Shown here in pieces: positions 1-10,522 of a stretch of 64,000 nt of DNA (position 1 is the first letter of the stretch; each line of letters opens with the position of its first letter). Under the pieces are notes generated by a model. It searched no databases and had not been told where the DNA came from. It worked only from the letters and a program-made list of their open reading frames with translations. Source of the DNA: Thalassospira lucentensis MCCC 1A00383 = DSM 14000 (GTDB lineage Bacteria; Pseudomonadota; Alphaproteobacteria; Rhodospirillales; Thalassospiraceae); contig NZ_ATWN01000005.1 in NCBI RefSeq assembly GCF_000421265.1, forward strand, positions 1-64,000, written 5' to 3'. The translations under genes were made by a program, and so were the position numbers.

Positions 1-158
1 ATCGCATCAGGGGACTTGCTGAACTTCTTCTTCCACACATACAGGGAATGTGTGCTGACACCGAGACGAGCAGAAACTTCCGCTACTGAGTAGCCTCGTT
101 CTGTAATCTGACGAACGGCATTAATCTTGAACTCATCGGTAAAATGACTCTTGGGCAT
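1..158 (-). CDS. IS3-family transposase OrfA, N-terminal part
   Basis: Partial gene running off the left edge; 52 codons are visible from the ATG at 158. The translation begins MPKSHFTDEFKINAVRQI and continues through a helix-turn-helix of the type GYSVAEVSARLGVS followed by LYVWKKKF, the classic OrfA DNA-binding region that recognises the IS terminal repeats. A good ribosome-binding site (AAGGAG) lies 6 bases upstream of the ATG. In the family, OrfA is joined to the DDE-bearing OrfB by programmed frameshifting; OrfB would lie beyond the edge. Whether the element is intact is unknown. Confidence 0.85.
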   Translation of the reverse strand, partial: MPKSHFTDEFKINAVRQITERGYSVAEVSARLGVSTHSLYVWKKKFSKSPDA

Positions 159-218
159 CGTAAACTCCTTGCCTCACTTTATAAGTGATGAGGTGTCTAC
201 AATTTCAGGGGCTATTCA
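1..218 (-). mobile_element. End of an IS3-family insertion sequence (cut by window edge)
   Basis: The stretch carries the start of an IS3-type orfA reading leftward, and about 60 bases upstream of it a sequence that reads, on the minus strand from 218, TGAATAGCCCCTGAAATTGT. This has the TG...CA-type terminus expected of IS3-family inverted repeats. I place the element end at about 218 on that basis. The other end and orfB lie outside the window, so the inverted repeat and the target duplication cannot be confirmed. The element abuts the recombinase module that follows. Confidence 0.7.
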
Positions 219-403
219 TCACGACGAGCCGAGCCTGTAGCACAAACGGTAATCTTTTCTTTTTTCAGCGTACCATCGGATCAGTCTAGCCCCATTTGCT
301 TCGATTCCGAGAAACCAGCGAGTGAAATCGAGTTCGAGTTGCTGAACAAACTAACATTTATTGAGTGTTTACGCTGATTTTTACAAAACAGATTGAATTT
401 CTG

Positions 404-468
404 TAATGCTTCGATATCGCTACATTAAGTGGTAAATCGTAGGATAATGCATCGTTATCGATGCATTA
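404..468. repeat. Two tandem 10-4-10 inverted repeats beside the recombinase module
   Basis: Two 24-bp inverted repeats share one geometry. The first (404-427) is TAATGCTTCG, 4 bases, CGCTACATTA (imperfect). The second (445-468) is TAATGCATCG, TTAT, CGATGCATTA (perfect). They start 41 bp apart, close to four helical turns. They lie 34 bp beyond the stop of the last gene of the leftward recombinase operon. No T-run follows on either strand, so they are poor terminators. The layout of paired inverted arms around a short spacer resembles core sites of tyrosine recombinases; that role is inference. The remainder of 219-501 shows no gene. Confidence 0.5.
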
Positions 469-501
469 CGAAGAGAGACAAATTTAGTTGTTAGTTCTCA
501 A

Positions 502-996
502 TCACCGTGATTTGTCGTTATTGGACGATATGGAAATTACAGAGGAGGGGATCGCACCAATATCAGATAATTTCTGCTGAATAGCCTGGTGTTTCTCGTA
601 AAACTTTAGCCAAGCCTTCATTCCACCCACTTCTCCGACGGCATGGATCATAGCCCTATGAGATGACAGCAAAATGTCCACGGTTTGTTCTAGCTCCTGA
701 ATTCTTTTTTCTTTTTGCTCAAGTTTGGCAAGCATTTTTGGCTTAGACTGCTTATCGGCTTGTTCCTGGATTTTACGCAAATGAGACTGTCGTTTAATCC
801 ATTCGGCCAGTTGTGCGCTTCTCCATTCATCTCGTGTAATTGAGGTAGCTGCAGAGAAGCCACTTACTGACCGCGAGACAGAACGCGCAGTTATCGTTTC
901 ATTTGTCTGAAACATCCTATCGAGGACACGAAGAAACTCGCGGTCCCTCTGCGCTGCGGTGCGCGTCCTTCGTTCGGGAAATTTTACGTTTCTCAT
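502..996 (-). CDS. Small accessory protein of the recombinase module (TnpC-like)
   Basis: A 164-residue basic protein, last gene of the leftward recombinase operon, starting 2 bases after the stop of the preceding gene, so probably translationally coupled. The N-terminus is Arg-rich; a segment around residues 35-60 (TARSVSRSVSG...SITRDEWRSAQ) looks like a small DNA-binding unit, followed by a charged heptad-like coiled coil at about 85-115 (LAKLEQKEKRIQELEQTVDIL). This build recalls the short third protein (TnpC) of Tn554-type transposons, which accompanies two tyrosine recombinases and affects transposition efficiency and orientation. The assignment rests on size, position and general pattern, not on a search. 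Confidence 0.6.
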   Translation of the reverse strand: MRNVKFPERRTRTAAQRDREFLRVLDRMFQTNETITARSVSRSVSGFSAATSITRDEWRSAQLAEWIKRQSHLRKIQEQADKQSKPKMLAKLEQKEKRIQELEQTVDILLSSHRAMIHAVGEVGGMKAWLKFYEKHQAIQQKLSDIGAIPSSVISISSNNDKSR

Positions 997-998
997 TA

Positions 999-3113
999 TT
1001 AGACTTGGCTTCTACTTTTAATAGGCTCCGACAAGTCATCGCCTTCTTCGAACACTTTTTCACCATCCCTAGTCGCAAGGATTTTATCAATACCATCAAT
1101 CATTTGTTTGGCATGTTTCAATTGATTTTGGGCACCAATACCTTCTGGCCTTTGAGATATCTCATCAATTGCAGTTTGCATGTTTTGCTTGGTCCGTTCC
1201 AAGTTCTCTCGGTGTTTAGTGTTATCTGTCGCCACCAAATGGCTGCAGCCATTGAAGCATTGTAGGTGTTTAGGGCAGGGGTCTACGGTGAAACTGTTAA
1301 CGCAATAACCATAAGGCGTTGCATGAAAGCCGTCCGCTTCAGCACTAAGAAAATCAAAAGCGGCTACGTCTCCGAGCTCTTTTTGGATTTTTCTGAATGT
1401 CCCCACAATTGGTCCCGAGACCTTTCCCGACTGAATCATAGCCAATACCGTTTTGGATCTTTCCGGAAGCTCTTGTGCTTCTGGTGGGAGATCAATCGCA
1501 GAAAGCTCTTCAGCTAACGTTCGATGGTCATATTCGTAGCTTTGGGCAACACTTTTGCGATTGAATCGCTTTGTAATGATTGCGTCGGAAATTCCAAGCC
1601 GGAAGAGTTCAGTGTTTTGGAGGTGGCGAAGCGAATGACTTTTCAAGCCAAGCTGACGATCTTCTTCAGTTTCACCATAACGGGCAAAGATGCCTTTTTT
1701 GCCCGGTGCCAGATGAATACTGAGGTCTTCCGACGTAACTCTGCCGACCGAAAAATAGAGGTTCAAATCGCAAATACCGTCATTTCGAGCTTCTGCCAGT
1801 GCTCGCTTTGGGTTCAGAAACAGAAACTCGTGCGCCTGAATTGAACGCCCATCAGCCAACCTGATAGGATCCGTATCCGATACCTTGGTTGGCGTAGTCT
1901 TCCTTACTAGGGCCTCGATCTCCTTGACCTCTGCCAAATCGCCAGGCCGTAACTTCGGCCATCCTTCTTTTGCTTTCCTAATCCAGTAAAGATAGACAGC
2001 GTTTATAAATGCGTCTCCCGAATAAACTTGATTGCAGGCGATTTCTCTCAAGACACTCGAATTGAAGTTCTCTCTGTATTCCTGAACTAGATGTTCTGGA
2101 ATAGCCGATACGCGAATTTGCGGATTACCTGTCAACCTCGTGTAGAGCTGGTAAGCTGGCAATACCGAGTTAGTATCTAAATCGGGAAATACTCTGCCTG
2201 TTGATACCTGGAGCTTTAATCGTTCCCGAAGAGGTTTTGTGACACGCACAACTTCATCGAGCGTCTCTTCCAATATCTTCTCAAACATTGTTGGGATATG
2301 TTGAACCGCCTCATGCAACAGCACGCTGTGCTGTTCTCTACCAGTTTACTTTTCGGCAAAATGTCTCAACATCAATGTTCGTGAAATGCCCCCACATTCC
2401 CCGGCTGACCGGCTGTCGAAATCGACGTGGTCTATGGTTCTCTTCCAGTCTGCAGGAATAGAGGACACTTCCCCAATACGCAAACCGCACAACAAAAGAA
2501 CCTTTAATTGAGAAAATCTAATAAAATCGGAGAAAGTTTTTGGTTTCTCCGTAAAGACAATTCTCACTAACTCCCATAATGCACGGCTTTCCGGCAACTT
2601 GCGGCCGTTTCTTCTTTCTGACAGTGTCTTTCGAACTTCCGGTCTAGGCTGGTTCGCTCTCAGCTCTTTTCGACTGCTAAAGAGATGATAGAAGGGACCA
2701 CGATCACAAAGCTGTTGCGCATCAAATATCAATCTGATGTTGCTGATGATTAGTTCTCTCAGTTTTCCAGATTTTTGAACTCGGTCAGCTGTATCGCAGG
2801 CAGTCGTGTTTCTCTGAACGCATAACTGCTGTATCGCTGCAGCTTTGATCAGGTCTTGCCAACTTTGGCTCAAAGGGACCTTTCCAGATACATATCCTTC
2901 AGTCTGATTAAATACCTTAACCGTATTATCGTCGTACCCTAGATCTCGCAACCAATGCACAGGAGGCGGAGTAGCACCTGCAATTGCAGTAAGGTTCCAT
3001 GCCTCATGTTTGGGTACCATCCCAGTTTCGCCGCCAGCCAACCCCCACTTGATACCTTTTTGCTCTGCATGATGTTTCCCAAGTGCGACAAATGTTGAGA
3101 AAAATTTATTCAT
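999..3113 (-). pseudogene. Large tyrosine recombinase interrupted by one in-frame stop
   Basis: Two reading frames, 3113-2346 (255 aa) and 2324-999 (441 aa, GTG start), lie in the same frame, separated by TAA at 2346-2348 and seven sense codons. Together they give about 704 residues. The first part holds the recombinase box I arginine (LLLCGLRIGEV, about residue 215). The second holds SHSLRHLQ (His-x-x-Arg) and SYEYDH with the likely nucleophile tyrosine, then a Cys-rich tail (PCPKHLQCFNGC). Neither half has the full catalytic set. The stop follows LRHFAEK and could arise from CAA by one C-to-T change. The start overlaps the upstream gene by 8 bases. Loss of function is likely unless the stop is read through or is a sequencing error. 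Confidence 0.75.
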
Positions 3114-4656
3114 GTTCAGAACCTACTTCTTCGCTGGGAATGTCGACAATTATTTGCTTTATCGCTTCCAATGTTGTTTTGAGCTGAACAAAAGCAGGTG
3201 ACTGATTGTCACCTTGAGATGCGTCAAAAAAGAATCTGACCACTTGCCGAAGATTATCAAATACTGTCGAATGCACAGAGCGCTCGCTAACTGGTAGAAA
3301 CTTGGGGCAAGTGTAACAAGAGAGAGCAGGGTGCTTTGCACACATTGACTGGCCTATGCCGCAAGCACCAATGCCAGAAATAGGAATCCCGTGGGGAACT
3401 CCTCCCACTTGTTGATCAGCAGGCATCCTGAGCAGCTTCTGCTTATCGATGGTCTTGGTTTTAGCAACTTCAGAAATCGCACTGTAAATGGGAGATACAG
3501 CAAGAGCTTGGTTAAGTTTCTCAGCTTGAGTTGGCGAGGCTTCAAAATAACAGAGTGAAGTCTTGGTATGAGAGTGGCCAAGAAACTCGGCCACCTCTTC
3601 CGCATTAGCTCCGCTGTCTACCAATCGTTGCGCTGCTGTGTGCCTGAGAGGTATTGCGGTACGCCTAACACCAGTGATCGCCTCTGTTGTGTCCCCAATT
3701 AGTGTAGTAATCTTCGAGCGTTCCACTGGAAAAAACTTAGTATCTTTGGCTCTTTCCGAATGTTTCCAGACTTTAGAATGCTGCCGCCGAGTTAGGTACT
3801 CTACCAAAATAGGCGACCATTCCCTTTTCACTCTTCTCTTAAATCCAAATCTAGCTTCGGGAGTGCGTTTCTTCGCTCGATGGGCTTGAAAATGAGCCGT
3901 TTTTATTCCGTCGACACCCTCAAAAATTGTAAATTCAGCTAAGTTTAGCCGGCAAATCTGTACTGGTCGAAGACCATGTTGATAGCTGATACACAGCAAA
4001 CTCGCTTTTAGTAGTTCTGCATCATCTAGATTATTACTTTTGCGAGCCATTTCATCGAGATAACAAACAATCGCGGTCTCTTCGGTCAGAGTTAAAATTA
4101 CTTCTCCGCTTTGAACACCGCGGGAACCTTTCGCGTAACGAACAGGGAGAAAGCGAATAAAATCCTGTTTATCTGTGCAAAAATGACCGATAGATAGCTC
4201 GCAGAAGAAGTTCAAGAGTAGCTTTATGGTATGTACATTAATTTCTGCAGGACTATCACACCACGAACCATCCCAATGGAGTTTCCATTCCTCAATCGGC
4301 ATATCTATTGCCTTGAGAAACCAAGTCTCAGATTGACTCTGTTTGATTGTTAAGAGCGCTCCAAAACATCTTGCTGCATATCCTGTGGCATTGCGACCAA
4401 GTAACCAGAACATGAAATGTTTCAACAAGTACCGTACGTCCAAATCTTCGAATTTGGAGAAATTTATGTTCACTCTGGTGGTATCAAAATTTAGCTGCCA
4501 GACGTCACTTTGATATGGGCTTTCGATTGTTCGCCAGTCTTCGTCGTATTCGTCGACATAGCGAATATGCGACGGAAGTTTGGGGAGTTTTCGAATGTGT
4601 TCGCGAACCGAAGTATCCCAATCAAATCCAAAGCTCATTTGGCTAGTCATGAACAT
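3106..4656 (-). CDS. Tyrosine recombinase with C-terminal cysteine cluster
   Basis: 516 residues, second gene of the leftward module, 11 bases after the first. Box I arginine lies in YQHGLRPVQICRL; box II reads IPLRHTAAQRL, with the usual first His replaced by Ile; then FLGHSHTKTSLCYFEAS gives the third-box His and the nucleophile Tyr. After the catalytic domain, about residues 425-450, comes ACGIGQSMC...SCYTCPKF, a probable metal-binding cluster absent from ordinary phage integrases. The protein probably acts with its two neighbours to cut and rejoin DNA at a specific site, as TnpA and TnpB do in Tn554. Partners and target are unknown. Confidence 0.8.
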   Translation of the reverse strand: MFMTSQMSFGFDWDTSVREHIRKLPKLPSHIRYVDEYDEDWRTIESPYQSDVWQLNFDTTRVNINFSKFEDLDVRYLLKHFMFWLLGRNATGYAARCFGALLTIKQSQSETWFLKAIDMPIEEWKLHWDGSWCDSPAEINVHTIKLLLNFFCELSIGHFCTDKQDFIRFLPVRYAKGSRGVQSGEVILTLTEETAIVCYLDEMARKSNNLDDAELLKASLLCISYQHGLRPVQICRLNLAEFTIFEGVDGIKTAHFQAHRAKKRTPEARFGFKRRVKREWSPILVEYLTRRQHSKVWKHSERAKDTKFFPVERSKITTLIGDTTEAITGVRRTAIPLRHTAAQRLVDSGANAEEVAEFLGHSHTKTSLCYFEASPTQAEKLNQALAVSPIYSAISEVAKTKTIDKQKLLRMPADQQVGGVPHGIPISGIGACGIGQSMCAKHPALSCYTCPKFLPVSERSVHSTVFDNLRQVVRFFFDASQGDNQSPAFVQLKTTLEAIKQIIVDIPSEEVGSEHE

Positions 4657-4667
4657 GCTTCCGATAA

Positions 4668-5903
4668 TCAGTACGATGTGACCGAAGATAACTGACGGAG
4701 CATTGTCACGCGCTCGTCAAACTGTGAGTTCCAAACCGAATTCAACCGATCTTCAAAAAACGCTCTCGCGTAATGGCGAGGCATGTCTGAATTTTTTGAC
4801 CACCCAAAAAATACTCTTAGGTTTTGCAGGGCAACTTCCATCTCCAACCCATAATCGACAAACTGGCGAAGTCGAAAAACCGCGCACGTATGTCGGCAAT
4901 CGTGCGGCGTCACTTTTTCTACGCCTTGGCGGGAATACAAATCGCGTTTAGCCGTTTTCGCCAAAGCAGACGAAAACCGGTCAAAAATCACATTTATACT
5001 TGGAACTGATAGAGGTTGCTTCCGGTTCGATGCGAACATGAAGCTATGGGGTTGGCGCCCTCTATAATTGTCCAAGTAGAATTGGATGAGCTGGGAGAGC
5101 GAACGAGATAGCGGTATTTGGCGATGTGAGAGGTCAGTTTTAATTCCGGGGGTTAAGAATCTTGGATCCTCAATCTCGTATTCATTTTCAGTAACATTAA
5201 TCCAGTATCTGTGACTGGCAATTGTCTGGTCCCATTCCTGCTTAATCGCATCAACAGGGAGCACGAGTGCTTCTGAGCGACGAATACCCTGATGTAGATA
5301 CAAAAGGAACAGAGAATAATTGCGCCAACGATGAGATTCAGATCGAAATGGATTTCGCTTAGATAGCGGGTCCGCAATTTCATACAGATCCTCGATGACA
5401 CTAGCGGGTAGGGCGCGCACAGGTCGCCTGCGAGGGCGTCGTTTTACATTCAGGCTCGCATAAAGGCGTTCAATTCGTTTAATTTTCCGATTGAGGTAGT
5501 TAAAGGAAATGTCAGAGTTCTGATTTTGAACTTGATTTCGAATTAAAATCTCGCGGACAAATTCGAAAGCTGTTTTCCAGTTCCGATTATAGTTGGATTT
5601 GTTTCCACGACCGGCTTCATTACGAAGCGATATGAAATATGCTTCGAGACAGCTCTCAATTTCCGAGTACTTGCTTTCGAAAAGCAAGCTATCTAGGCAG
5701 TCTTCATCCATTAAATCCGCGACAAAGCGATAAAGTCGATCGATCGCTGAAAGCTTGCCTGAGAGGGTGCTTTTCCGCAGTGCGTTTCCATGCAATGCCT
5801 CCCACACGGTTGGCCAGTAACGCGGGAGACCGCGCGTATCCGTGACGACGATAGAATTGAAATCGGCAGGTAAGTTTGGAGAACGAATGTGTTGAACTGT
5901 CAT
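4668..5903 (-). CDS. Tyrosine recombinase, first gene of the recombinase module
   Basis: A site-specific recombinase of about 411 residues from the ATG at 5903. A longer ATG form from 5954 would add a hydrophobic stretch that does not suit this family, though no clear ribosome-binding site decides it. Catalytic pattern: Arg in LHQGIRRSEALVL, HDCRHTCAVF for His-x-x-Arg, Trp in FFGWSKNSDM where many relatives have His, and Tyr in RHYARAFFED. The N-terminal half is an all-helical core-binding type region. It heads a packed operon of three recombinases and one small protein. Codon and base use is AT-richer than the following sugar cluster, consistent with horizontal acquisition. Confidence 0.82.
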   Translation of the reverse strand: MTVQHIRSPNLPADFNSIVVTDTRGLPRYWPTVWEALHGNALRKSTLSGKLSAIDRLYRFVADLMDEDCLDSLLFESKYSEIESCLEAYFISLRNEAGRGNKSNYNRNWKTAFEFVREILIRNQVQNQNSDISFNYLNRKIKRIERLYASLNVKRRPRRRPVRALPASVIEDLYEIADPLSKRNPFRSESHRWRNYSLFLLYLHQGIRRSEALVLPVDAIKQEWDQTIASHRYWINVTENEYEIEDPRFLTPGIKTDLSHRQIPLSRSLSQLIQFYLDNYRGRQPHSFMFASNRKQPLSVPSINVIFDRFSSALAKTAKRDLYSRQGVEKVTPHDCRHTCAVFRLRQFVDYGLEMEVALQNLRVFFGWSKNSDMPRHYARAFFEDRLNSVWNSQFDERVTMLRQLSSVTSY

Positions 5904-5998
5904 AACGATTTGTAAATACGACAGAAAGTTTATCGCAACCAATAAAAACGCCATTTAGACGCGCTCAACGCAACACACCTGAAATTAGACTGACGTTC

Positions 5999-6014
5999 CA
6001 TAATATATATTATG
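5999..6014. promoter_or_regulatory. 16-bp perfect palindrome upstream of the recombinase operon
   Basis: CATAATATATATTATG is its own reverse complement. It lies in the gap between the recombinase operon (reading left) and the end of the sugar permease gene, 45 to 95 bases upstream of the two possible starts of the first recombinase. It could be an operator or part of the operon's promoter, or mark the right boundary of the element. AT-only palindromes of this size can also occur by chance, so the call is tentative. Confidence 0.35.
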
Positions 6015-6103
6015 ACAAATAATAATCAGCTGTAGCTTCAGCGCGCCCCAAACCCTACACTAAATGTCATATATCAACTCACACCACCTATCGATTGATA
6101 CTA

Positions 6104-7129
6104 TTATGTTTTCTCCTGCCTGAAGCGATCAAACGCAACAGCAATGACAATAAATGCCCCAACGAATGTTCCTTGCCAGAATGTACTGATGCCTAACAGA
6201 ATGAGGCTGTTTCGGATCACTTCAATTAATAGTGCGCCGATCACAGCACCGAATGCTGTGCCGCCGCCGCCAGCCAAATTAGCCCCACCAATCACAGCCG
6301 CAGCAATCACGGTCAACTCCATAGCTTGCCCCAGATTGGTCGTGACACCACCAAGCCAGCCCACTTCAAGAACACCTGCAATACCGGCCATCAGGCCAGA
6401 AAACATATAGACGCTGACTTTTATCCGCGCGACTGGGATACCGGTCAGAACAGCCGCATTCTCATTGCCCCCAATTGCGAACAAATGCTGCCCCCAGCGC
6501 AGCTGACGGAACGCGAAAGCCGTTATAACCGCTAGGATGATCAAAATGATCAGCGGATGTGGCAAACCAAATGTCGCGCCGCCGCCAAGCCACAGCAAAA
6601 AGTCATGGTCAGGACCAAATTCATAAATCATCTTGTTGTCCGACAACACCATGGCCAGACTACGCGCGATAGACAGCATACCGAGCGTGACGACAAACGG
6701 TGGCATCTTGGCATATGCGATCAGAACGCCATTTATTGCGCCAACAAGCATTGAAACCGAAAGTGCTGCGAGACACCCTACCCAGAACGGCATTCCTGCA
6801 GACATTATGACGCTTACAGTCATCGCAGAAATCACCAAGGTCGAGCCAACCGATAAATCAATGCCGCCCGAGGCAATGACCGCTGTCATGCCGAGCGCAA
6901 TAATCCCGACAAACGCAAAGTTGCGTGTGACATTGAAAAGATTACGTTCCGTGGCAAAGCTGTCTGTGAGAATAGTTAATGCAAGACAGGCAAACACGGC
7001 AGCCATAAACACCCAGAAAATCTGCTGGCTTGTAATGCGCGCGATCAATCCGTGATGCTGTGAACGGTTAATGGCATCAGCAAGAGTAGGATCTGACATG
7101 CTCATTGTTCCTTTTTCATTTCCACTCAT
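6104..7129 (-). CDS. Sugar ABC transporter permease (RbsC/FrcC type)
   Basis: 341 residues with about eight to ten hydrophobic segments and the hallmark GMTAVIASGGIDLSVGS of the ribose/fructose-type permease family, plus AAVIGGANLAGGGGTAFGAVIGALL near the C-terminus. It would form the inner-membrane channel of a carbohydrate importer. It is the last gene of the leftward sugar cluster and overlaps the single-domain ATPase gene by 4 bases (ATGA), which suggests the two pair. I keep the coupled ATG at 7129; ATGs at 7105 and 7099 follow an AAGGA and are credible alternatives. The substrate is not readable from sequence. Confidence 0.9.
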   Translation of the reverse strand: MSGNEKGTMSMSDPTLADAINRSQHHGLIARITSQQIFWVFMAAVFACLALTILTDSFATERNLFNVTRNFAFVGIIALGMTAVIASGGIDLSVGSTLVISAMTVSVIMSAGMPFWVGCLAALSVSMLVGAINGVLIAYAKMPPFVVTLGMLSIARSLAMVLSDNKMIYEFGPDHDFLLWLGGGATFGLPHPLIILIILAVITAFAFRQLRWGQHLFAIGGNENAAVLTGIPVARIKVSVYMFSGLMAGIAGVLEVGWLGGVTTNLGQAMELTVIAAAVIGGANLAGGGGTAFGAVIGALLIEVIRNSLILLGISTFWQGTFVGAFIVIAVAFDRFRQEKT

Positions 7130-7866
7130 GCTGTTTCAATTGCCCCGGTAATCAGGCCTGTGATTTCTTCTGGCGACGAGTCTGACGCTTTTTTGTCGGC
7201 CACAAGTTCCCCACGCCGCAACACAACAACTTTATGAGCAACTTCAAATACATCGGGCATGCGATGGCTTATTAAAACCACTGCGATCCCATGATCACTC
7301 AATTGCCGGATCAGATTAAGAACCTCTGCGACCTGACGAACGGAAATCGCCGCTGTCGGCTCGTCCATCAGAACGATCTTTGCGTCACTCAAGAGTGTTC
7401 TGGCAATTGCAACCGCCTGACGCTGCCCACCAGACATTCTGTGCACCAAATCACGTGGTCGGGTTTCTGATTTCAAACGCGCAAACAACTCAGCAGACCG
7501 TTTACGCATGAATGCATAGTCGACGATTTTTATCGGCCCGATTTTACGGGTCGGTTCGCGCCCCAAAAATACGTTCGAAGCGGCCGTCATATTGTTACAG
7601 ATTGCAAGATCCTGATAGACGACCTCGACACCAGCTTTTTGAGCATCCAATGGCTTGTGAAATACCGTTCTTTGATCAGAGATAAAAATATCACCAGAAC
7701 TTGGTGCGAAATTGCCCGCAATGACTTTGACTAATGTGGATTTCCCAGCACCATTATCGCCCATAAGACCGACAACTTCCCCGGGCTCAATCGCCAAAGA
7801 AACGTCTCTAAGTGCCTGAATAGCCCCATAGCTTTTGGATATGTTTTTTAATTCCAGAACGTTCAT
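7126..7866 (-). CDS. Sugar ABC transporter ATP-binding protein, single domain (FrcA type)
   Basis: 246 residues, one nucleotide-binding domain: Walker A GDNGAGKST (about residue 35), signature MSGGQRQAVAIAR, Walker B KIVLMDEPTAA, then the switch His in VVLISHRMP. Ribose-type ATPases usually carry two domains in one chain; a single-domain form is typical of FrcA of the fructose system, so this one probably works as a dimer with the permease gene it overlaps by 4 bases. The start at 7866 follows a strong purine run (GAGAAGGGGGG). Upstream in-frame codons add an unlikely MHCLINRCGGREGG extension. Confidence 0.9.
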   Translation of the reverse strand: MNVLELKNISKSYGAIQALRDVSLAIEPGEVVGLMGDNGAGKSTLVKVIAGNFAPSSGDIFISDQRTVFHKPLDAQKAGVEVVYQDLAICNNMTAASNVFLGREPTRKIGPIKIVDYAFMRKRSAELFARLKSETRPRDLVHRMSGGQRQAVAIARTLLSDAKIVLMDEPTAAISVRQVAEVLNLIRQLSDHGIAVVLISHRMPDVFEVAHKVVVLRRGELVADKKASDSSPEEITGLITGAIETA

Positions 7867-7931
7867 TAACCCCCCTTCTCTGCCGCCGCACCGATTTATC
7901 AGGCAATGCACAGAGTACTTCTTATTGTGAT

Positions 7932-8915
7932 TTATGATTTTTGCAGCAAACCCAAAGCGCGTTCAGTATTCTTCCTGTTGCGATAGGCCGCAAATTGCTG
8001 ATCTGCCAAAACGCCAAGCAGGATAACAGCGCCCATCACTGCGAAGTTCAGTGAAGACGGAATTCCCAACAGGTTGACAAGATTTTGCAGCTCCTGCAGC
8101 AGCACGGCGCCAAGAACAATGCCAATCACAGATCCTTCGCCGCCACGAAGCGAACATCCGCCCAATACAGCCGCGGCAATCGCGTACAATTCATAAAAGT
8201 TGCCATGAGATGACGGCTGAACAGACTTGGTGAACATTGCGAAATAGATCGCCGCGATAGACGCCAACACCGCACATATTACGTAAGCCGCGATGGTCAC
8301 AAACCGGGTATTGATCCCTGAGAAACGTGCCGCTTCTTCATTCTTGCCGACTGCGCAAAGATGCCTGCCAAAGACGGTATGGTGCAAAACAACCCACATG
8401 ATTGCAGCAACGATCAGCATTGCAACAAACGAATGCGGCACACCAAAGCTGCGCCCGATTGTTAGCCATTCCAGTTGCGGGTAGTTCGACCCGAATGGGA
8501 AACCAGCAGTAGATTCCGCCGTATATCCCCGTGCTATCCCGCGATAAATCAGCAACCCGCATAGCGTCACGACAAATGGCTGCAGTTTAAACCGGGTTAT
8601 TAAAACGCCGTGTGCTAAACCAATTGCCACCCCCAAGACAATCATCAGTGCGACGGCCAAGGGCCATGGAACGCCAAATTTACCGACCATATCGACAAAC
8701 AAGACGCCAAGCAGGGCAATGACCGATCCAACCGAAAGATCAATGCCGCCCGTCATGATAACAAAACCCTGCCCAATGGCGAACAACCCAAACAACCCAA
8801 TCAGGTTTGCAGTGTTGCCAAGGTTAATTGGCGAGAGAAAAAGTGGGTTTCGCATGTAAACGATGATACCCACAACGATAATCAGAACCGCCAAACCGAT
8901 GTCTTTTTTTTGCAT
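7932..8915 (-). CDS. Sugar ABC transporter permease (RbsC type)
   Basis: 327 residues, multi-pass inner-membrane protein of the same family as the permease at the end of the cluster: IGQGFVIMTGGIDLSVGSVIALLG marks the conserved region after the second or third helix, and AAAVLGGCSLRGGEGSVIG the C-terminal conserved loop. It starts 3 bases after the two-domain ATPase stops, so these two most likely form one transporter with the binding protein upstream, while the next two genes form a second. Ribosome-binding site GAGG lies 8 bases before the ATG. Confidence 0.9.
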   Translation of the reverse strand: MQKKDIGLAVLIIVVGIIVYMRNPLFLSPINLGNTANLIGLFGLFAIGQGFVIMTGGIDLSVGSVIALLGVLFVDMVGKFGVPWPLAVALMIVLGVAIGLAHGVLITRFKLQPFVVTLCGLLIYRGIARGYTAESTAGFPFGSNYPQLEWLTIGRSFGVPHSFVAMLIVAAIMWVVLHHTVFGRHLCAVGKNEEAARFSGINTRFVTIAAYVICAVLASIAAIYFAMFTKSVQPSSHGNFYELYAIAAAVLGGCSLRGGEGSVIGIVLGAVLLQELQNLVNLLGIPSSLNFAVMGAVILLGVLADQQFAAYRNRKNTERALGLLQKS

Positions 8916-8918
8916 TTT

Positions 8919-10436
8919 TCAGGCCTCTTCCAGCACCCTGCCGACGGCAAGATTAAGGACGTTACTTTCGGAAAATTTCAGGCGTGGCAATTCCCCAGTG
9001 ATCACTCCGTCTTTCATTACGACAATCCTGTCAGACACACCGATCACCTCTTCCATATCACTAGATATCATCATCACTCCTACTCCACGATCAGCCAGAG
9101 ATCGCATCAAACTGTAAATCTCGGCTTTCGCACCCACATCGATCCCGCGGGTCGGTTCATCAAAAATGATGACCTTCGGATCCATAGAAAGCCACTTTGC
9201 CAGAACGACTTTTTGTTGATTTCCGCCTGACATTTCATTGGCAGCGCGGCAAACATCATGTGTCTTGATCGCCAAAGAACTCCGCTGAACCTCGGCGACC
9301 TCTATCTGACGTTTTTGCGAAACCAGCCCGTGCGACGTGAAGGCAGGAAGATTGGCCATTGTAATATTCTCGACCGTTGGAAAATCCAGAATCAGGCCGG
9401 CACGTTTACGATCTTCCGGAACAAGATAAAGCCCGGCGGTAATCGCATCGGCCGGCGATTTCGTGTTTAGGTGCTCACCATCTATCAACACCTCGCCGCC
9501 AAGCTTTTGACCAACACCAAAGATGGCCTCGGCCAGCTCCGTGCGTCCGGCGCCAATCAGTCCGGCGACACCAAGGATTTCTCCTGCCATCAGGTCGAAG
9601 CTTGCAGGACGATCAGGTTTGCTTTTGATGCAAAAGTTTCTGACGGATAAAATTGGTTTGGACGACATTTGTGTGGGCGGTGTGTAAAGCGCCTTAAGAT
9701 CACGTCCAATCATCATGTGGATCATGGCGTCATGGGTAACGTCTTCACGCTCTAGCGTTCCGACATTATGGCCATCGCGCAAAACAACTGCACGGTCGAC
9801 ACATTCCTCAACCTCACTCAGCCGATGGGAAATATAGACAACTGCAATCCCTTCCGCCTTTAGATCCGCGATCACCTTTAACAGCATGTTGGTTTCAGAC
9901 AGGGTAAGACTTGACGTCGGTTCGTCCATAATGACCAACCGCGCATTCATCGATAAAGCTTTGGCAATCTCAAGCAACTGGCATTCCGCCAGCGACAACG
10001 TCGAAACCGGTGTGTCTGAATGAAACTGTGCGCCCACACGATCAAGGAGCGGTTGCGCCAATTCATTCATGCGTTTTCTATCAGTAAGACGCAGTGGCCC
10101 ACGAACCTTTTCACGCCCCAAAAAGATGTTTGCCGCAACATCCATGTTATCGAAAACATTCAGTTCCTGATGAACGAAAGCGATACCTGCTTGCTGTGAT
10201 TGTTGAACATCGAACCTGCAATGCTCTTGACCATCTAGTATGATCCGTCCCGAAGTTGGCGCAATCAAACCGCCTAGAATTTTCATGAGGGTTGATTTGC
10301 CCGCCCCGTTTTCCCCAAGCAGGCCAACCACTTCACCAGCTTTGATCTGCAAAGACACGTCGTTCAATGCGACGACGCCTGGGTACACCTTAGTGACACC
10401 CTCCAGTCTCAGATCAAGCCTCTGCACTGCACTCAT
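8919..10436 (-). CDS. Sugar ABC transporter ATPase, two domains (RbsA type)
   Basis: 504 residues from the ATG at 10436, the normal length for RbsA/MglA-type proteins; upstream in-frame codons would add 26 non-conserved residues, and GGGGAG precedes this ATG by 9 bases. The N-domain has Walker A GENGAGKST, LSLAECQLLEIAKAL and Walker B VIMDEPTSSL. The C-domain has the usual degenerate Walker A (VAGLIGAGRTE), the signature MSGGNQQKVVLAKWL and IIFDEPTRGIDVGAK. Such chains energise import of monosaccharides or their relatives together with one homodimeric permease, here the next gene downstream. Confidence 0.92.
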   Translation of the reverse strand: MSAVQRLDLRLEGVTKVYPGVVALNDVSLQIKAGEVVGLLGENGAGKSTLMKILGGLIAPTSGRIILDGQEHCRFDVQQSQQAGIAFVHQELNVFDNMDVAANIFLGREKVRGPLRLTDRKRMNELAQPLLDRVGAQFHSDTPVSTLSLAECQLLEIAKALSMNARLVIMDEPTSSLTLSETNMLLKVIADLKAEGIAVVYISHRLSEVEECVDRAVVLRDGHNVGTLEREDVTHDAMIHMMIGRDLKALYTPPTQMSSKPILSVRNFCIKSKPDRPASFDLMAGEILGVAGLIGAGRTELAEAIFGVGQKLGGEVLIDGEHLNTKSPADAITAGLYLVPEDRKRAGLILDFPTVENITMANLPAFTSHGLVSQKRQIEVAEVQRSSLAIKTHDVCRAANEMSGGNQQKVVLAKWLSMDPKVIIFDEPTRGIDVGAKAEIYSLMRSLADRGVGVMMISSDMEEVIGVSDRIVVMKDGVITGELPRLKFSESNVLNLAVGRVLEEA

Positions 10437-10476
10437 TACATTCGGCTCCCCAATGTCTTCGATATCAACAGAAGGT

Positions 10477-10522
10477 GCGAGTGGGCATGGCGGCAGTCTC
10501 ATATCCGCACACACCCACTCGC
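10477..10522 (-). terminator. Stem-loop between binding-protein and ATPase genes
   Basis: GCGAGTGGG (10477-10485) pairs perfectly with CCCACTCGC (10514-10522); inside, GCGG and CCGC can pair again. It lies between the stop of the solute-binding protein gene (10540) and the start of the ATPase gene (10436). No T-run follows, so it is less a full terminator than an mRNA-protecting or attenuating structure, of the kind often found after binding-protein genes and thought to keep the binding protein more abundant than its membrane partners. Confidence 0.55.

Follow-up and report, generated by a model that had tools for sequence, protein, structure and literature searches.

A ginABCD island beside the predicted dif site of Thalassospira lucentensis, and a GInt lineage that may target dif

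The window analysed here is the first 64,000 nucleotides of contig NZ_ATWN01000005.1 of Thalassospira lucentensis (genome G000, contig C5). It carries a leftward operon at 502–5903 which, judged by sequence comparison, is the ginABCD operon of a GInt-type genomic island. The island adjoins a 28-mer predicted to be the host's dif, and we consider it highly probable that the Gin proteins inserted it there as a circle; the crossover would have fallen within the outer half of an Xer-binding arm and left a single complete dif. What we observe is the operon, two island ends, the empty site in a close relative, a single dif-like site in this genome and in the majority of its relatives, and an arrangement shared by most of the related GInts examined. 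The features concerned are the following.

502–996, minus strand: ginD, small DNA-binding-like protein of 164 amino acids (GinD-like open reading frames after ginC in relatives, alignment, model)
999–3113, minus strand: ginC, broken (open reading frames, homologue alignment, DNA comparison with genome G011)
3106–4656, minus strand: ginB, tyrosine recombinase of 516 amino acids (Pfam Phage_integrase, 33.4 bits; conserved residues)
4668–5903, minus strand: ginA, tyrosine recombinase of 411 amino acids (Pfam Phage_integrase, 45.4 bits; conserved residues)
5970–5975, minus strand: TGTTGC, the terminal motif at the gin end, spaced from dif as in relatives (comparison with relatives)
5993–6020, plus strand: predicted dif 28-mer, its XerC-type arm facing ginA (dif profile; the sole such site found in G000)
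5995–6000, plus strand: putative 6-nucleotide crossover core in the outer half of the XerC-type arm (occupied against empty sites, from which its exact limits are inferred)

Results

The predicted dif site

The dif profile was built from the 48 dif sites tabulated by Carnoy and Roten (PMC2731167). The window 28-mer scores 29.3 against it, and the second-best distinct position within these 64 kb reaches 5.5; the known sites, left out one by one, have a median score of 32.2, the lowest being 1.1. At up to two mismatches, the dif 24-mer is found in 28 of 29 genomes of the genus and as exactly one copy in 25 of them, while the reversed 24-mer, used as a control, has no match in these 29 genomes. 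At up to three mismatches, the copy in the window is the only one found in G000. The 8-mer GGGNAGGG, which we take to be the E. coli KOPS motif, is distributed 16:1 over three 20-kb stretches to the left of dif and 0:15 over three to its right in the one-contig genome G013, where the GC skew also shifts from plus to minus at the dif site; in the part of the window that lies rightward of dif (58 kb), the ratio is 0:13. Because the 28-mer matches published sites, occurs in a single copy and, in a relative, marks the switch in skew and in GGGNAGGG polarity, we read it as the predicted dif of the host. In the host, one XerC/D-type recombinase passes the family cut-off; another falls short of it (228.5 against 279 bits), and a third match is weak.

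Island ends and empty sites

DNA similarity to the close relative G001 begins at window position 5995 and extends rightward at 98%, and the left part of the same G001 locus matches contig C1 of G000 up to 856180, at 96%. A single contiguous locus in G001 is therefore split in G000, the split point reading TTCTATAATATATATTATGACAAAT in G001 and TTCCATAATATATATTATGACAAAT in the window; by this alignment, G001 carries the empty site of the window's island. In T. tepidiphila (G017), both ends of a 15.4-kb GInt lie on one contig (C22:94873–110302), and G013 has an uninterrupted dif at the same place. Because the far end of the G017 island is homologous to the sequence from G000:C1:856181 onward, we take the latter to be the far end of the window's island. 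The island would then span from C1:856181 to window position 5995, which comes to at least about 29 kb if C1 up to 879648 and window 1–5995 both belong to it.

Compared with empty sites, the 28-mer differs at positions 1–2 in the occupied G000 and G017 and in a G003 remnant (in G000 at position 7 as well), and at position 28 in G021 and the G022 remnant, which are inserted at the opposite arm. Differences in dif within a species have been noted at positions 1–4 and 27–28 (Carnoy and Roten, PMC2731167). No dif-like sequence was found at the far ends of the G000 and G017 islands, where the best scores are −5.0 and −8.4. Occupied sites thus appear to be altered at their outer arm bases, with one complete dif remaining. 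These comparisons suggest a 6-nucleotide core in the outer half of the arm, either GTTCTA (positions 3–8) or GACAAA (positions 22–27). Such a core would resemble the 6-bp core of strand-biased circularizing integrative elements (SEs; PMC10214605) and differ from Xer exchange, which takes place at the central hexamer.

Further traces lie next to dif elsewhere in the genus. A mini-element of about 360 bp in G022 (L062, C5 near 8273–8296) sits beside dif and holds a ginA-like fragment; by eye, it is bounded by 19-bp inverted repeats, and it resembles a non-autonomous GInt. In L055 (G004) and L063 (G008), the sequence immediately to the left of dif contains incomplete copies of its outer arm (TTCTATAAT-like), which look like footprints of past insertions. 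G011 has several dif-like sites (L072 on C132, L061 on C99, L091 on C146), one of them with a window-like gin-end sequence, and its gin operon (GinB 87% identical) sits at a more diverged dif-like site. A repeat search on the G011 contig added nothing.

Assignment of the operon to the GInts

By gene content the operon is set apart from Tn554, which has two recombinases (TnpA, TnpB and TnpC only), whereas the window holds three recombinase-type genes and a small gene. The Gamma-Mobile-Trio is the set of GmtY, GmtZ and GmtX. Recombinase-in-trio (RIT) elements differ in gene content too, in that RitA, RitB and RitC are listed without a fourth protein in the survey text (PMC10214605) and ginD is present here. 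SEs, like Tn554, share with the gin operon tyrosine recombinases, a small Srap/TnpC protein and a 6-bp core by the ends; their gene order, however, is intA-tfp-intB-srap, and their proteins cluster apart from the Gin proteins (PMC10214605). We rejected SE membership, the order here being two Pfam-matching recombinases, a large GinC and GinD.

GInts, for which Tn6571 family is an alternative name (PMC10121019), were described in 2017 from Alpha-, Beta- and Gammaproteobacteria and other phyla as tripartite islands, and in Pseudomonas their excision and integration require all three integrases as well as the small protein (PMC5385486). The window operon has the gene count, order and sizes of ginABCD. 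Local alignments with the gin operon of Stutzerimonas stutzeri (L164) give 31% identity for GinA (E 9e-68), 32% for GinB (E 1e-55) and 23% for GinD (E 9e-10). The tripartite plan of gin operon, cargo and short far end is seen on one contig in G017, and insertion is at a specific site that the relatives G001 and G013 have empty. GInts are also defined by imperfect direct repeats of 10–17 nucleotides (attL and attR) at their flanks; here, the two island junctions share few bases, and the ends resemble inverted motifs with a 6-nucleotide core.

An earlier, sequence-only reading of this DNA had proposed a mobile-element recombination operon of three recombinases and an accessory protein, which agrees with ginABCD. 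It had found no clean match to a described family, and had named a clear assignment to one as evidence against its view; the operon is now assigned to the ginABCD genes of the GInts as described (PMC5385486). The empty-site comparison in related strains that it had suggested gave empty sites in G001 and G013. It had overlooked that ginC is broken, and likewise where the element ends and what it targets, at 5993–6020.

Survey of related gin loci

A GinC profile search of genome contigs yielded 79 gin loci. The 59 with at least 2990 bp upstream of ginC were eligible (20 were dropped), and GinA, GinB and GinD stand at the expected places in 58, 59 and 56 of them, respectively. The threshold for a dif-like score, 13.3, is the best score of 158 letter-shuffled loci and was set after the scores had been seen. 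In 42 of the 59 loci a 28-mer above this threshold lies in the ginA-side region, the best score elsewhere in these loci being 12.7. All 42 sites precede the first GinA-aligned codon, by 67–865 bp (median 135); 38 lie 2800–3160 bp from the ginC start, and 31 are oriented one way and 11 the other. Furthermore, GTTGC or GTAGC occurs 18 nucleotides inside from the 28-mer in 39 of the 42, and 17 or 19 nucleotides inside in the other three. In the letter-shuffle control, which counted GTTGC alone and left GTAGC uncounted, offsets of 16–21 were seen in 0.5%.

The same arrangement was found on plasmids, in the eight gin loci (L200–L207) examined out of 72 plasmid records. In all eight the best dif-like match lies 136–329 bp upstream of the annotated ginA start, with the terminal motif at offset 18; seven score above 13.3 (L203 barely, at 13.4), and L205 scores 5.5. 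The annotated gene after ginB is short in L206 and L207. These loci include that of Cupriavidus necator pHG1, and their dif-like sites may be the plasmids' own dimer-resolution sites.

Sites were counted in 17 genomes chosen as top scorers; 14 of them carry a single matching site, which its coordinates place next to the GInt. The GGGNAGGG switch around the GInt is clear in G126 (10:1, 0:12), as is the GC-skew switch in G130. In a quick GinC tree with flagged long branches (70 rows, namely the window and the 69 of 79 loci with a frame of at least 600 amino acids), clustering is seen for three of the five labels (none of 500 shuffles was as low) and not for the short and weak labels, and the Stutzerimonas-type rows, which have no dif-like site, form a separate group with two others. 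Hosts include Acidobacteriota, with a strong site in L100 and weak ones in L105 and L146. A flank search in Pseudomonas found no pair of occupied and empty sites. Nine short contigs (L099, L106, L108, L109, L112, L115, L122, L124 and L160) end 2860–2905 bp upstream of ginC, which is the usual dif distance; such ends are expected if near-identical gin operons occupy several dif sites of one genome.

The gin genes and their products

The four genes are tightly packed, with a gap of 11 bp between ginA and ginB, an overlap of 8 bp between ginB and ginC, and a gap of 2 bp between ginC and ginD; the ginA reading frame is open to 5954. The sequence-only reading was right about the presence and order of four packed leftward genes and about an AT-richer stretch (44–47% G+C per kilobase in the operon, against 47–55% in the remaining window), but the third gene is not one open frame. 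An in-frame TAA at 2346–2348 leaves two same-frame open reading frames, 2346–3113 and 999–2324. In addition, ginC has a 36-column in-frame gap where 15 aligned homologues hold 32–36 residues, with the junction at about 2800–2804 and a matching gap in the DNA relative to G011. Intact GinC has 738 amino acids in G017 and 740 in the closest homologue. In T. profundimaris strain 35 (L149), each of the four gin genes is a single open frame. A description as three recombinases in four or five open reading frames was rejected, the two middle frames being one broken ginC. Because ginC is broken, the window's copy of the island is probably no longer mobile.

Tyrosine-recombinase motifs, which had been ascribed to three of the genes, are well supported for GinA and GinB, both above the Pfam Phage_integrase cut-off; in GinC the second half matches weakly (E 0.076) and the first half has no Phage_integrase match. 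GinA retains R, H-x-x-R, W and Y (R208, H334, R337, W368 and Y378, conservation 99% in 70 rows). GinB retains R, R-H, H and Y (R230, R338, H339, H361 and Y370, conserved at 90–100% in 73 rows), the first His of HxxR not being kept. Across the aligned GinC homologues, R, HxxR and Y are invariant. The GinD alignment contains a conserved ITAR...SSITR segment, and the TRDEWR segment picked out earlier in the last gene falls at its SITR motif. A model of GinD (pLDDT 82.5) shows short helices followed by a helix of 66 residues. For the model of intact GinC (pLDDT 78), the top PDB fold match is Cre (E 0.015), with XerH among the next, all of them weak; neither the GinC nor the GinD model matched a PDB fold below E 0.001, and GinA matched no PDB sequence at E 0.01. 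When viral contigs were scanned once, with one GinC as the query, no relative was found.

Cargo and neighbouring sequence

The C1 part of the island carries genes for a P450, a ferredoxin, a ferredoxin reductase, a ring-cleavage-type dioxygenase, hydrolases and a branched-chain-type ABC importer, together with a glutathione-dependent formaldehyde dehydrogenase and an S-formylglutathione hydrolase, both above cut-off. This gene set suggests a demethylating catabolic role. The P450-ferredoxin DNA is complete in G000 alone among the 29 genomes of the genus, two others having three short matches of 26–103 bp. The G017 cargo (L023:452–9584) comprises a cytosine methylase, Vsr and relatives of MzaB, C, D and E, and is probably an Mza anti-phage defence system. 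Cargo had been predicted to lie to the left of the operon, which is correct in sense, on another contig (C1); the expectation that the same genes would be found elsewhere with different cargo is borne out by the Mza-like genes of G017 and the catabolic-type genes of G000. By eye, an open reading frame just inside the island far end (L033:1529–2455) resembles a patchwork of pieces from a transposase and a transporter, with an insertion-sequence end within it.

One further feature lies at the left edge of the window.

1–218, minus strand: partial insertion sequence, terminal repeat to 218 (identical end sequence on other copies of it in G000)

The window begins at the contig end, inside this element, which is presumably of an IS3-like family. 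A flanking insertion sequence had been noted from the letters alone; it is indeed present, although partial and cut by the contig end. The ends of C1 and C5 both enter the same type of insertion sequence. On the other side of the island, window 6104–10514 beside dif holds, by eye, sugar-type ABC transporter genes. Within Thalassospira the right flanks of dif are of several unrelated types, and therefore the flanks of dif turn over.

Discussion

Elements that use dif are already known, among them IMEXs, which rely on the host Xer recombinases (PMC9765430, PMC5357621), and insertion sequences of the IS1202 family, which are found near the XerC arm (PMC10132070). The gonococcal island (GGI), LME-1 and CTX-type phages share with the window island the chromosome dimer-resolution site as a target; GGI and LME-1, however, leave a second, modified dif (PMC9765430), whereas the window island encodes its own recombinases and leaves one dif. 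We rejected IMEX membership on its own ginABC genes, the lack of a second dif in G000 and G017, and a junction in the outer arm. IS1202-family elements (ISAjo2 type) resemble the island in having an enzyme of their own, a transposase, and in inserting beside the XerC arm of dif or pdif. They differ in being 1.5-kb insertion sequences rather than islands, in having a DDE transposase, and in lying 5 bp away from the XerC site between 5-bp duplications (PMC10132070).

It could still be argued, in the manner of an IMEX, that the island brings a dif mimic which host XerC and XerD integrate, the gin genes being passengers or helpers. This would fit a dif-like site in a host with XerC/D-type recombinases, and IMEXs at dif are a known precedent (PMC9765430). 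We nevertheless regard it as very improbable: occupied G000 and G017 keep one dif with none at the far end, 14 of the 17 other genomes have one site, the junction lies in the outer arm and not in the central hexamer, the gin order is kept in nearly all loci, and the gin genes are essential in Pseudomonas GInts (PMC5385486). That the 28-mer is the island's own end, and not the host's dif, would explain why it stands at the gin end in every counted case. Yet it is present without the island in relatives, bar its outer bases, its sequence varies with the host lineage, and it is usually the sole copy in occupied genomes, so that this explanation appears very improbable. Finally, the terminus might be a tolerant region that collects islands, their adjacency to dif being incidental, as the unrelated right flanks of dif within Thalassospira could suggest; the fixed spacing of 18 nucleotides between motif and 28-mer, seen in 39 of the 42 loci from genomes and in all eight from plasmids, makes such a coincidence extremely unlikely.

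Several findings do weigh against insertion at dif by the Gin proteins as we propose it. Five of the 59 eligible loci have weak sites, scoring 8.5–13.2 (L102, L105, L107, L146 and L152), four of them at the usual distance, and in twelve no dif-like site was found (L118, L120, L139, L150, L153, L157 and L164–L169; best score 3.6); six of these twelve fall among rows with dif in the tree (L118, L120 and L169; L139, L150 and L153). One of the 17 top-scoring genomes has two matching sites and two have none. The GGGNAGGG switch is weak in G130 (2:0, 1:3) and G125 (2:0, 3:6), and the GC-skew switch is weak in G125 and G126. Within the genus, the dif 24-mer at up to two mismatches is missing from G023 and occurs two or three times in G011, G015 and G026. 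The join of C1 to C5 is unproven, with no matching target duplication at the ends of the insertion sequence, and contig C17 also bears such sequence near both its ends. In G017, ginA (L092:4193–5432) is split over two frames; that copy may be inactive too, or the contig may contain a sequencing error.

If a circular island was inserted at dif by the Gin proteins, GinA, GinB and GinC may recognise dif itself or Xer-bound dif, and the 6-nucleotide core would be the region of exchange. GinD may act like TnpC of Tn554, as the 2017 GInt paper suggests (PMC5385486), and XerCD would still use the occupied dif. That related islands adjoin dif-like sites is likely due to enzymes of their own, which would target that site and keep it intact. 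More tentatively, and with somewhat less than even confidence, we propose that self-encoded islands of this kind form a large and ancient lineage, spread over the Alpha-, Beta- and Gammaproteobacteria and the Acidobacteriota, for which dif, both chromosomal and on plasmids, would be the dedicated attachment site. These islands might read Xer-bound arms rather than a fixed sequence and always rebuild one working dif, so that dimer resolution would be spared and XerCD could not resolve the island out.

The window island has the four-gene order, recombinase types, small GinD, cargo between operon and far end, and site-specific insertion of the GInts of 2017. The attachment sites named in the text of that paper, however, are an ABC-transporter gene, ssb and a ribonucleotide reductase gene (PMC5385486), whereas the window lineage adjoins dif; L164 is without a dif-like site. 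The word dif is absent from the main text of the GInt paper (PMC5385486) and of the SE/GInt survey (PMC10214605). Among the titles and abstracts listed by searches of the open-licence PMC literature (in one of them, 20 of 29 papers), none joining GInts and dif was found; the supplementary attachment-site tables of the GInt paper fall outside that scope, and a dif-like attachment site may be in print there unnamed. Because the literature searched does not join the two, what appears to be new is not the GInts, which are known, but their address, a dif-targeting lineage.

Few sites are indispensable to most circular bacterial chromosomes, and dif is among them; a self-encoded system that targets it without spoiling it would gain a safe landing place in distant hosts. 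Such insertion could account for part of the variation among strains in the flanks of dif and in its outermost bases. With a predictable address, GInts carrying defence or catabolic cargo could be found by looking beside dif, and the arrangement enables a direct test of whether Xer-bound DNA can dock other recombinases.

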